Source of the DNA: Bombella intestini
Lineage (GTDB): Bacteria; Pseudomonadota; Alphaproteobacteria; Acetobacterales; Acetobacteraceae
DNA: 64,000 bases
Assembly (NCBI RefSeq): GCF_002003665.1
Contig: NZ_JATM01000001.1
Coordinates: 496,001-560,000 of the forward strand
Direction of reading: 5' to 3'
Shown: positions 56,436 to 61,031 of the stretch, piece by piece
Layout: every line of letters starts with the position of its first letter
Numbering within the stretch: position 1 is the stretch's first letter
The notes under the pieces: generated by a model
Told to the model about the DNA's origin: nothing
The model's input: only the letters and a program-made list of their open reading frames with translations
The model's database searches: none
Made by a program: the position numbers and the translations under genes

Positions 56436-56512
56436 TGGTCGGGCAGGCGGGATTCGAACCCACGACCCCCAGTCCCCCAGACTGATGCGCTACCAGACTG
56501 CGCTACTGCCCG
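56436..56512 (-). tRNA. tRNA-Pro (anticodon GGG)
   Basis: A 77-base minus-strand gene. Acceptor CGGGCAG pairs with CTGCCCG, with an encoded CCA end. The anticodon arm TCAGT-CTGGGGG-ACTGG gives GGG, and the T-arm GTTCGAATC is clear. Confidence 0.95.
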
Positions 56513-56539
56513 TCGTCCTGCGGTGAGGAAGCTCTAGCA

Positions 56540-56578
56540 GCCTCGGACTATTCTTGCAATGGTCCGAGGCTTTTTTTT
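56540..56578 (+). terminator. Plus-strand terminator beyond tRNA-Pro
   Basis: GCCTCGGAC (56540-56548) pairs with GTCCGAGGC (56562-56570) and is followed by eight Ts on the plus strand. It fits the end of the AI-2E-family transcript; on the minus strand no U-run follows. Confidence 0.88.
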
Positions 56579-58508
56579 AACATTTTTCAGAAAGTAAGGT
56601 CTTTTTCATCCCGGCTAGTTCACCGAGGAGATCACGCAAGAGACCATCCAACTCGCTTTTCCGCTTGGCCTGAAGACGGCTATCCATCTCCTGAGCAGCC
56701 AACCTTTGCTGGAGGACAACACCCTCCCCTTCCAAAGCCCGGATCCGTTCCAAAGATTCCGCATGCCGCTCACGCTCTTCGGCAAAACCGGCTTGTTCCT
56801 GCCGCAGCTCGTCATTCTCCGCTTCGAGGCGTTCCACCTTCTCAACGATGACAGCTTGCGCAGCCTGCTTTTCTTCGCCTTCTTTCAACGAACGCTTGAG
56901 GCGCACATTTTCATCCTCAAGCGACTGCATGATTAAGACAGACTGCTCCAGCTTCCGTACGAGCTCCTGCCGCTCCCCGCTCAAGGTCTCTAGTTGGCTG
57001 GTAAGCTTCTTATGCTGAAGGGCCTCTTCTTGCTGCAACGAGTGAAGCTGTTCTTGCTCCGCCTGCAACGCCGTAAACCGACCATGCAGCTCATCAAACT
57101 CACCTTGTTTGACCTCTGCATTTTGCAGCTGCTTTTCCACTTCAGTTGTCAGACGCTCAACTGTCTCCCTCAGGCTGACAGTCTCTTCTTCCAACGTCTG
57201 ATACCTAACCTGCGCAGCTTCCCTCTGCTTTATGTCAGTAGTACGCAGCGTTTCATTTTCAGCTTCCAGAGCATGGCAGCGTTCTGCCTCCGCCCGAACC
57301 TCCTCCAGTTCTTTGGTCAGCTCCTGAACCCGCCCATGCTCGACTTGCATGTCCGCCAGCTTTCCCCTTAGCCCTTCAAGCTGGGTCAGCCGCTCCTTGC
57401 GGGACTCTGCCTCTCTCTGATGCTCTTTTGCTTCAGACCTCAGCTGCTCAATCGTCTTCTGCAACTCGTGATTGCGCTCTTCCAACGTCCGACCACGAGC
57501 TGCCTCTATTTCACGCTGTTTCTGCCCCGCTGCTCGCAGAGCCTCATTCTCAGATTCGAGGCGTTGAGCACTGGCCTGCACAGCTTCCAGCTTTTCACGC
57601 AGGGCTTGTGCTTCCTCACGCTCCGTCTCTCGCTGTTTCTGCCCTGCTAACCGCAGAGCCTCATTCTCAGATTCGAGACGTTGAGCACTAGCCTGCACAG
57701 CTTCTAGCTTTTCACGCAGGGCTTGTGTTTCCTCACGCTCCGTCTCTCGCTGCTTCTGCCCCGCTAACCGCAGAGCCTCATTCTCAGATTCGAGACGTTG
57801 AGCACTGGCCTGCACAGCTTCTAGCTTTTCACGTAGGGCTTGTGTTTCCTCACGCTCTTCCTGCAACCCGGCCAGTTCCGAACGCAACTCATCAAGCTGT
57901 AATTGTCGTTCTTTCTCGCCAGCTTCTGCCTGTTGATGCGCCTTCTTTTCTGCCGTCAGACGCTCAACAGCCTCTTGCAAAACAAGATTCTGTTCTTCAA
58001 GCTCCGCCAAATAAGCTTTTTCGTCTTCCTTTTGAGGCACAGCATCATGGGCTTGCTCAAGTGCCTCTTTCAAAGAAGTGTTTTCATCTTCCAATGTCTT
58101 AAGAGACAGAGCAATGCGGCCAAATTCTTCAAGACGCTCATTAAGCGTCTTATTTTCCTGCTGAAGTTCCTTCAGTTGATCAGACTGCAGCGACACACCC
58201 TCACCGGTCGTCTCCTCACTCCCATGAGACGATGATACGGTGTCGTCACCGATAATCCCCTCACGCTTCAGCTGTGGGACGACCTCATGACTTCGGGCAC
58301 CATCCTGATAAAGCAACCGGGCAATATTCCGCACGATCATGACGGCCCGCTCGTCATAATAGCTCTGCCCATCCCCACGCTGCTCCGTCTTAAAAACGGG
58401 ATAGAGACTTTCCCACGAGCGCAGACGGTACAGAGGCAGGCCCAGCTCTTCGGCAACACTGGCTGCCGTCCTCAGAGCATCATGCTGAGATGAATCAGTG
58501 GAAGTCAT
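56577..58508 (-). CDS. MerR-type DNA-binding protein with a giant coiled coil
   Basis: A 643-residue protein. The N-terminal MerR-like winged helix (ALRTAASVAEELGLPLYRLRSWE, then FKTEQRGDGQSYYDERAVMIVRNIARLLYQDG, about 10-75) is like the MerR gene that normally follows ihfA in alphaproteobacteria. Usual members are under 200 residues. Here residues about 105-640 form a Glu/Gln/Lys/Leu-rich coiled coil, including three near-identical 39-residue repeats (about 217-333) of the form REKLEAVQASAQRLESENEA. No membrane segment or cysteine-rich metal site is seen. The ATG at 58508 overlaps ihfA by 14 bases; a GTG three codons upstream is possible. The coiled coil suggests self-assembly or scaffolding on DNA, which is inference. 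Confidence 0.85.
   Translation of the reverse strand: MTSTDSSQHDALRTAASVAEELGLPLYRLRSWESLYPVFKTEQRGDGQSYYDERAVMIVRNIARLLYQDGARSHEVVPQLKREGIIGDDTVSSSHGSEETTGEGVSLQSDQLKELQQENKTLNERLEEFGRIALSLKTLEDENTSLKEALEQAHDAVPQKEDEKAYLAELEEQNLVLQEAVERLTAEKKAHQQAEAGEKERQLQLDELRSELAGLQEEREETQALREKLEAVQASAQRLESENEALRLAGQKQRETEREETQALREKLEAVQASAQRLESENEALRLAGQKQRETEREEAQALREKLEAVQASAQRLESENEALRAAGQKQREIEAARGRTLEERNHELQKTIEQLRSEAKEHQREAESRKERLTQLEGLRGKLADMQVEHGRVQELTKELEEVRAEAERCHALEAENETLRTTDIKQREAAQVRYQTLEEETVSLRETVERLTTEVEKQLQNAEVKQGEFDELHGRFTALQAEQEQLHSLQQEEALQHKKLTSQLETLSGERQELVRKLEQSVLIMQSLEDENVRLKRSLKEGEEKQAAQAVIVEKVERLEAENDELRQEQAGFAEERERHAESLERIRALEGEGVVLQQRLAAQEMDSRLQAKRKSELDGLLRDLLGELAGMKKTLLSEKC
57505..57860 (-). 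repeat. Three tandem 117-bp repeats inside the MerR-type gene
   Basis: Three in-frame copies encode a 39-residue unit running EREETQALREKL to LAGQKQRET. At DNA level the copies differ by only a few mostly silent bases, which indicates recent tandem duplication. The third copy has EA for ET and AAG for LAG changes. Boundaries are approximate. Confidence 0.9.
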
Positions 58509-58815
58509 TAGGGGCACCCTGCGTTACTGATCTACCGTTAACACTCTCCCGCAACAAACGAGACGGACGGAAAAACGGTACACGCCGTGCCGAGATGACG
58601 GCTTCCTCCCCCGTAAGGGGATTCCGCCCCAGACGAGGCGCTTTATCCCGCACGGCAAACGTTCCAAAGCCGCTGATTTTCAACGACTTACCCTGTTCAA
58701 GCGTCTGGACAAACAGCTCGAACATTTCCTCCAGAAACAGGATGGCCTGCTGCCGGGAAAAGCCATGCTCCCCCTGAAGGAGCTCTATCAGATCAGCGCG
58801 TGCAATTGTCTCCAT
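58495..58815 (-). CDS. ihfA: Integration host factor subunit alpha
   Basis: Sequence-specific DNA-bending protein, heterodimer with IhfB. In 106 residues: ETIARADLIELLQ start, DNA-bending signature SGFGTFAVRDKAPRLGRNP and the C-terminal RRVPFFRPSRLLRE. The start METIARADL is set by homology; the ribosome-binding site is poor and an in-frame extension to 58851 is probably untranslated. A terminator lies upstream, so ihfA likely has its own promoter. It overlaps the MerR-type gene. Confidence 0.95.
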   Translation of the reverse strand: METIARADLIELLQGEHGFSRQQAILFLEEMFELFVQTLEQGKSLKISGFGTFAVRDKAPRLGRNPLTGEEAVISARRVPFFRPSRLLRESVNGRSVTQGAPNDFH

Positions 58816-58922: not shown

Positions 58923-59918
58923 TCACATTCTTATGAGTGCTGAACCCCATGTAAGACCACCGCCCAGAGCCTCCATCAGGACCAGATCACCCTGCTTGAT
59001 CCGCCCATCCCGCACAGCTTCATCCAATGCCAATGGAATAGAAGCAGCAGAGGTGTTGGCGTGGCGATCCACCGTCACTACGACCCGATCCGATGGCAAA
59101 GAAAGCTTCTTGGCCATGCCATCAATAATTCTTAGATTCGCCTGATGTGGCACCATCCACTGAATATCTGTCCCCTTAAGACCGTTAGTCTCCAAGGCTT
59201 CATCAACAGCAGCAGCCAGATTGACGACAGCATGACGGAATACCTCCCGCCCGTGCATCTTCAGAGCTACCTTGCCGGATGTACAGCCAACGGCCCCATC
59301 AACATAAAGGAGGTCCCCAAGCCGCCCATCTGCATGAAGGTGAGTCGACAATATGCCTTCACCCTCATCAGCGCCTGCCTCTAGCAGGACAGCGCCCGCA
59401 CCATCACCAAACAGAACGCAGGTAGACCGGTCTTCCCAATCCAGCAGACGGGAAAACACCTCCACGCCAATCACCATAATACGCTTGGCCTGACCCGAGC
59501 GGATCATGGAATCACCAATCGTCAGAGCATAAACGAAGCCGGAACAGGCCGCACTGACATCAAAACCAAAGCCCCGTTCCATACCCAGAGCCGCTTGAAC
59601 ACGCACAGCAACTGACGGGAAAACCTGATCCGGCGTTGATGTCGCCACAATGACGGCATCAACATCGCTAGCTGCTTTACCGGCGTGATCTAGGGCCCTC
59701 TGCGCTGCCTTATGAGCAAGTGAAACGGCCGTCTCATCCCCTGAGACGATATGACGCTGCTGGATTCCCGTTCTGGTCCGTATCCACTCATCTGATGTAT
59801 CAAGATTGAACTCAGCAGCCAGCTCGTCATTACTGAAAGCACGCTGCGGAAGAGCACTGCCGACACCTATCAGACGGGCACCCGTTACCTTGTTCCGGGA
59901 CTGTTTATCCTGCGCCAT
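58923..59918 (-). CDS. fabH: 3-oxoacyl-[ACP] synthase III
   Basis: Condenses acetyl-CoA with malonyl-ACP to start fatty acid synthesis. The 331-residue product has the catalytic cysteine in FDVSAACSGFVYAL, histidine in VPHQANLRIIDG and asparagine in DRHANTSAASIP. It starts ten bases after plsX, in the standard plsX-fabH pair linking phospholipid and fatty-acid synthesis. Confidence 0.97.
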   Translation of the reverse strand: MAQDKQSRNKVTGARLIGVGSALPQRAFSNDELAAEFNLDTSDEWIRTRTGIQQRHIVSGDETAVSLAHKAAQRALDHAGKAASDVDAVIVATSTPDQVFPSVAVRVQAALGMERGFGFDVSAACSGFVYALTIGDSMIRSGQAKRIMVIGVEVFSRLLDWEDRSTCVLFGDGAGAVLLEAGADEGEGILSTHLHADGRLGDLLYVDGAVGCTSGKVALKMHGREVFRHAVVNLAAAVDEALETNGLKGTDIQWMVPHQANLRIIDGMAKKLSLPSDRVVVTVDRHANTSAASIPLALDEAVRDGRIKQGDLVLMEALGGGLTWGSALIRM

Positions 59919-59927
59919 ATGAAGACG

Positions 59928-61031
59928 TCACTCCTGCTCTTTATTCTCTCCAGACTGCCCCAGCATACCCAGCTGGTCCAGACGGTGGCGGATCTTGTCG
60001 TTCAGACGATTCTCTACAGCGTCTATAGCGACATCCACAGCAGAGGCGAAACCTTCCGCATCGGCTCCGCCATGTGACTTCACAACGATGCCATTCAGCC
60101 CCACAAACACAGCACCGTTATAGCGACTGGGGTCAATCCATTCCTTCATCCGGCGCAAACCGGGGCGCACCAGAATATAACCAAGTTTGGTCAGCCAGTT
60201 GCTCATGAACACACTTCTGAGCAATCCGAATGCCAGCTTTAGCGCACCCTCACCCGTCTTCAGTGCAACATTGCCCGTGAAACCATCCGTCACGACAACA
60301 TCGGTCACGCCTGCAGTGATATCGTGGCCTTCTACGAAGCCATAAAAACGATCCGACAGAACGCTGTCCCGCAGCCGCTCTGCAGCTTGTTTCAGACGCT
60401 CATCACCCTTCAGCTCTTCCGAACCGACATTAAGCAGACCGATACTGGGTGCTTTGAGGGACAAAGCAGCCTGTGCAAAGGCCTCGCCCATGATGGCGAA
60501 CTCGACCAGATTACGAGCATCACAAACGATATTTGCACCAAGGTCGAGCATGACGACATCGCCACGAGCCGATGGCTGAACCGCCGCCATAGCTGGACGT
60601 GAAATACCGGGAAGAGCCTTAACAATGATCTTTGCCAGCGCAAGCATGGCACCGCTATTACCGGCAGAAACAACGCCCCGCGCTTCGCCAGAAGCTACAG
60701 CTTCCATGGCAATCCGCATAGACGATCCCCGTACACGGAGGGCCGCAGTAGGCTTCATCTCCATAGGGATACTCTCCGGCGCATGGCGCACGGTGCATAG
60801 AGCTGAAAGTTTAGGATAATTCGTAAGCGATGCGTTCAGCACCTTCTCATCACCGATGAGAAGAATCCGGATTTCTGGGTGACGGATAGCCGCCATCTCC
60901 AATCCGGCAAGAACGATCCCGGGGGCGTTGTCTCCCCCCATGGCATCAACGGCCAGGGTAAAAGGAGCTGGAGAATGTGCAGTCTGTTTTTCGACTCCAC
61001 CCTCAGCTCTAACGCCAGACGCCTCCGTCAT
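59928..61031 (-). CDS. plsX: Phosphate acyltransferase PlsX
   Basis: Converts acyl-ACP to acyl-phosphate for phosphatidic acid synthesis. The 367-residue product carries AVDAMGGDNAPGIVLAGLEMA at about 28-48, SAGNSGAMLALAKI, and the C-terminal VDVAIDAVENRLNDKI. An about 25-residue polar N-terminal leader precedes the conserved region; a GGGGG-rich sequence lies upstream of the ATG, but no clean ribosome-binding site. It follows rpmF and a terminator by about 100 bases. Confidence 0.95.
   Translation of the reverse strand: MTEASGVRAEGGVEKQTAHSPAPFTLAVDAMGGDNAPGIVLAGLEMAAIRHPEIRILLIGDEKVLNASLTNYPKLSALCTVRHAPESIPMEMKPTAALRVRGSSMRIAMEAVASGEARGVVSAGNSGAMLALAKIIVKALPGISRPAMAAVQPSARGDVVMLDLGANIVCDARNLVEFAIMGEAFAQAALSLKAPSIGLLNVGSEELKGDERLKQAAERLRDSVLSDRFYGFVEGHDITAGVTDVVVTDGFTGNVALKTGEGALKLAFGLLRSVFMSNWLTKLGYILVRPGLRRMKEWIDPSRYNGAVFVGLNGIVVKSHGGADAEGFASAVDVAIDAVENRLNDKIRHRLDQLGMLGQSGENKEQE

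Follow-up and report, generated by a model that had tools for sequence, protein, structure and literature searches.

RacA of Bacillus, a MerR-type chromosome anchor with a coiled coil, binds near the origin and attaches the chromosome to a cell-end protein, DivIVA at the pole. In the MatP-ZapB-ZapA system of Escherichia coli, MatP is unrelated in sequence, and the coil comes from a separate protein, ZapB. Outside enteric bacteria, the holding of the replication terminus at the division site has been worked out mainly in Caulobacter. There, ZapT (Caulobacter crescentus CCNA_01434), a MerR-family protein encoded after ihfA, joins the terminus to the Z-ring via ZauP and ZapA (PMC7188993, PMC7858052). 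Caulobacter ZapT, a ∼21-kDa protein (His-tagged) that dimerises, binds DNA close to the terminus and shows low sequence specificity in vitro, its sites lying mostly within reading frames and lacking a motif; ZauP binding in vitro requires the ZapT C-terminus, and Gly113-Gly141 is enough for ZauP co-localisation in vivo. The same reports use ihfA-merR adjacency as a criterion for ZapT homologues (PMC7188993, PMC7858052).

The window analysed here, a stretch of 64,000 nucleotides from Bombella intestini (contig NZ_JATM01000001.1), carries on its minus strand a zapT-like gene (56577..58508) for a protein of 643 aa that consists of a MerR head, a linker, a coiled coil of ∼530 residues and a C-terminal tail. 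Its ATG at 58508 is the start also found in relatives (an alternative GTG is present 9 nt upstream), and its stop occupies 56577-56579. The first-pass annotation had described a MerR head joined to more than 500 residues of coiled coil, in a gene overlapping ihfA. Both descriptions were accurate: the arm has the predicted length and a coil signature, and the overlap with ihfA (58495..58815, minus strand) is real; it measures 14 nt in this gene, against 4 nt in most of the Bombella relatives. The ihfA product scored 88.1 bits with PF00216 and 104.3 bits with PRK00285, slightly short of the cut-off of 111 for the latter. Upstream on the same strand are an ORF that we take to be fabH-like (58923..59918), with homologues in the loci of relatives, and a presumably plsX-like ORF (59928..61031); a tRNA-Pro gene (GGG; 56436..56512, minus strand) lies immediately downstream, so that the minus-strand order is plsX-like, fabH-like, ihfA, zapT-like gene, tRNA-Pro. 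The zapT-like gene thus directly follows ihfA in a possible operon, and the same adjacency was seen in the Bombella, Saccharibacter, Gluconobacter and Neokomagataea loci that were checked. Because ihfA is paired with short ZapTs as well, this arrangement does not in itself speak for a shared role in DNA bending. A hairpin of 14 pairs with a T-run behind it (56539-56571) looks like a terminator on the plus strand only; the zapT-like gene and tRNA-Pro may therefore be co-transcribed. A chance ORF or an assembly artefact was ruled out by the independent relatives and by a Ka/Ks of ∼0.10.

The MerR-type winged-helix head comprises residues 13-84 (58257..58472, minus strand). PF13411 (MerR_1) matched residues 16-69 with 29.4 bits (cut-off 21.6), and as this was the single match in the whole 2.02-Mb genome, there is no paralogue with which the zapT-like gene could be confused; for Caulobacter, the ZapT literature counts five MerR-family proteins (PMC7188993, PMC7858052). 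Modelled alone with AF2, the head folded into a winged helix with a block pLDDT of 90-96, and the top Foldseek matches of this model were the RacA-DNA, CarH and NmlR heads, all with a probability of 1.00. The best of these was B. subtilis RacA bound to DNA (5i44; E 1.8e-3), although the identity of the two heads is only 15-16%. RacA is also much shorter than the Bombella protein. The wing (58356-58376) reads GDGQSYY in Bombella versus GGGRRYY in typical short homologues, such that the Bombella head does not have the basic R-R-Y-Y wing, which the Pfam family does not require. The net charge of the head is -1, compared with +5 in one typical homologue and -1 in a short Neokomagataea-type head. 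Judging from the altered wing and the charge, the protein may bind DNA less strongly or in a different way. Altered wings also occurred in ESL0709 and Saccharibacter.

Behind the head, a disordered linker (residues 85-110; 58179..58256, minus strand), with a pLDDT of < 50 at residues 90-107, leads into the arm. Residues 101-643 include one proline in 543 positions, and their hydrophobic period peaks at 3.49 residues. The local 3.5-residue power of residues 105-643 was 2.43, as opposed to 1.01 ± 0.30 in shuffled sequences, none of which (0 of 1000) reached 2.43; heptad periodicity and scarcity of prolines both mark the arm, which is acidic (net charge -40), as a coiled coil. In the arm of B. 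pluederhausensis the 3.5-residue periodicity was non-significant (76 of 1000 shuffles reached the observed value). Ten L..xN..L motifs were observed in the Bombella intestini arm versus 0.26 expected, and asparagine at the core 'a' position favours parallel dimers. AF2 predicted helices at residues 111-155, 160-325 and 364-639 of the full protein, with the linker disordered at ∼91-110 and the coil interrupted at 326-363 (pLDDT about 60). The heptads contain stutters, and in this model the continuity of the coil, and hence of any rod, is uncertain. An SMC- or ASRP-like arm was rejected, as NCBIfam matches fell far under the cut-off and reflected generic coil.

Purifying selection acts on the arm. 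For the whole gene, Ka/Ks was 0.104 versus B. favorum and 0.099 versus strain B3987. Within the arm, two segments stood out in the alignments with two close relatives: an N-proximal coil (residues 111-190, RLEEFGRIALSLKTLEDEN...AYLAELEEQNLVLQEAVERL; 57939..58178, minus strand) with a Ka/Ks of 0.03-0.09, and a C-proximal coil (residues 506-545, ERQELVRKLEQSVLIMQSLEDENVRLKRSLK; 56874..56993, minus strand) with a Ka/Ks of 0-0.03, which is among the most conserved segments, being strongly conserved across Bombella and partly common to Saccharibacter. Of all segments compared, the fast-evolving linker had the lowest identity and the highest Ka/Ks.

The short homologues have a leucine-rich helix at their C-terminus. 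We built a position-specific matrix of this tail from 21 distant short homologues, none of them from the clade and their windows anchored by a leucine pattern of our choosing, and scanned it along 14 clade proteins. Thirteen of the 14 had their best window at a distance of 2-5 residues from the C-terminus; in the remaining protein, from Saccharibacter sp. 17.LH.SD, the tail (10.1) was the best arm window and second to a head window (10.6). The profile peak of the 643-aa protein is a conserved helix at residues 617-638 (KSELDGLLRDLLGELAGMKKTL; 56595..56660, minus strand), a candidate ZauP-binding element. Its score of 5.9 is modest, being reached by 3 of 200 shuffled arms, and most relatives score higher. 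The strength of the argument consequently lies in the recurring C-terminal position, not in any one score.

The presumed partners are encoded in the same genome. We found zapA in all 18 genomes checked (PF05164, 55.7 bits in the genome of the window), and 14 of the 18 loci had a zauP-like ORF directly in front of it. In the genome of the window this ORF has 87 residues, is coil-like, ends 5 nt before zapA and displays an RLExAL...LExRL pattern common to the ORFs at the equivalent place in relatives. A Pfam search with it gave no match, so its assignment as ZauP rests on position and this short pattern. In three of the other four loci (L128, L134 and L135), the zapA start pattern itself failed to match; these loci are thus no real test of zauP absence. 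L128 belongs to a long-armed genome (G070). L134 and L135 are from small genomes (G116 and G029) in which ZapA matched weakly (E about 1e-6) and the ZapT frames are short, at 177 and 167 codons. With both genes apparently present, the idea that the arm substitutes for a lost ZauP or ZapA was rejected. In Bombella and Saccharibacter, the zauP-like gene contains a conserved LGFALEQ stretch (L049:2255-2518; L119-L133), which was absent from the other Acetobacteraceae ORFs examined.

Position directly after ihfA, a MerR-type head, a leucine-rich C-terminal helix and a zapA gene with an adjoining ZauP-like gene are all shared with Caulobacter ZapT, from which the Bombella protein differs by the ∼530-residue coil between head and tail. 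It is probable, in our judgement, that this protein is the Bombella orthologue of ZapT, greatly elongated, and connects the replication terminus with the cytokinetic Z-ring. Most likely, and most simply, it is a longer DNA-to-divisome tether of the ZapT kind. The N-terminal head would bind DNA; residues 111-639 would assemble into a parallel coiled coil that is mostly dimeric and, as a straight and unbroken rod, at most about 78 nm long (529 residues × 0.1485 nm); and, by analogy with Caulobacter, the C-terminal helix at the far end would dock on ZauP, itself on ZapA and FtsZ. The arm probably arose by growth of the variable linker, with the functional end on either side held fixed and with help from tandem duplication of coil units; this would alter the reach of the tether and leave the end contacts unchanged. 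In the open-licence literature searched we found no experiments on any Bombella ZapT and no description of long ZapTs; the titles and abstract openings of Bombella papers on MerR or cell division contained nothing on the zapT-like protein.

The MerR head was detected in 282 of 299 Acetobacteraceae genomes by a head search, and a broader model found a homologue in 166 of 193 alphaproteobacterial genomes. Outside the insect-associated clade the long arm is absent: ZapT is short in most Acetobacteraceae and other alphaproteobacteria, with frames of 105-391 codons among the alphaproteobacterial matches listed, and in the longest of these the part from the head onward measures only about 170 residues. 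These short ZapTs combine a fast-evolving linker with a conserved C-terminal helix. Within the clade, protein lengths are 349-748 aa in Bombella, 516-725 aa in Saccharibacter, 583 aa in one further genus and 251-258 aa in ESL0709 and its neighbour. Every Bombella and Saccharibacter genome examined has the long arm, though in two it is shorter (349 aa for the whole protein); the long-armed hosts are bee-associated acetic acid bacteria. In a FabH tree, Bombella and a related uncultured genome were grouped at 100/98, and the deeper position of Saccharibacter and other genera was weakly supported. The first-pass annotation was right that the MerR protein beside ihfA is normally short, but what it treated as a single oddity runs through the whole clade and varies in length. 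It named neither ZapT nor the conserved tail. The absence of the arm in relatives, which it had set against its own reading, held outside the clade and failed inside Bombella and Saccharibacter. Its suggestion that the coil tethers DNA at a distance in chromosome organisation gains support in outline from the gene's position and the retained ZauP-binding-like tail, whereas its suggestion of filaments gained none.

The overall design, a globular DNA-binding head with a long alpha-helical tail, is also that of the KfrA proteins of plasmids RA3 and R751, which according to the published abstract form filaments on cognate DNA (PMC7821693). A long, acidic arm (net charge -40) might likewise polymerise into threads that organise DNA without the divisome. 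We consider such a filament former improbable: a ZapA and a ZauP-like partner are retained, no sign of lateral assembly emerged, and even short ZapTs with hardly any coil, or none, share the conserved C-terminal helix, an indication that this end serves for docking. KfrA proteins, moreover, are plasmid-encoded transcriptional auto-regulators, and their abstract mentions no association with ihfA, zauP or zapA (PMC7821693).

The altered wing invites a different view, in which the head no longer binds DNA specifically and the protein serves the divisome as a structural scaffold, extending ZauP and ZapA instead of tethering the chromosome. The replacement of the wing R-R by Q-S and the slightly acidic head would fit this, yet the head is among the best-conserved segments in Bombella (Ka/Ks 0-0.06 versus two close relatives), its model resembles MerR folds bound to DNA, that of RacA most closely, and low sequence specificity is described for Caulobacter ZapT itself (PMC7188993, PMC7858052); a scaffold of this type is improbable. 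Nor do we favour an ordinary transcription regulator of the MerR type, whose long spacer would serve no particular purpose and drift in length by repeat slippage. The MerR_1 domain agrees with it, as do the repeat-rich linkers (HDAHDA, EAEAEA) of short homologues, by which length seems weakly constrained. However, the coil-forming sequence, the core asparagines and two conserved islands are maintained at a Ka/Ks of about 0.1, and the Caulobacter ZapT sites reported lie mostly inside reading frames and show no motif (PMC7188993, PMC7858052), making an ordinary regulator unlikely.

For the preferred reading, an elongated ZapT, the clade is a natural length series: both ends are kept and the middle is stretched (∼250 to ∼750 residues), so that the importance of tether length can be tested directly. 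By the same reading, 'MerR family regulator' annotations beside ihfA may be division-chromosome linkers. That the ZapT arm is an evolvable molecular ruler, in which repeat copy number sets the terminus-to-Z-ring distance, is a doubtful extension; if true, the distance of the terminus would differ measurably between closely related Bombella species, whose proteins span 349-748 aa. The repeat in question is a 117-bp (39-aa) tandem repeat inside the arm (57514..57857, minus strand; TRF score 618), present in 2.9 copies here, as against 1.9 in B. favorum and 2.1 in strain B3987. The B. favorum protein is shorter by exactly one 39-residue unit once two additional residues close to its N-terminus are taken into account. 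As 39 residues equal five heptads plus four residues, stutters are expected. From these sequence comparisons, the linker appears to have been turned into coiled coil in Bombella, Saccharibacter and one further genus, partly via the 117-bp repeat. Low-complexity repeats (HDAHDAHDA, EAEAEAEA) were also seen at the linker position of short homologues, in Neokomagataea-type loci (L021, L026 and L029) and in two others (L019 and L024), suggesting that the linker is repeat-prone beyond Bombella.
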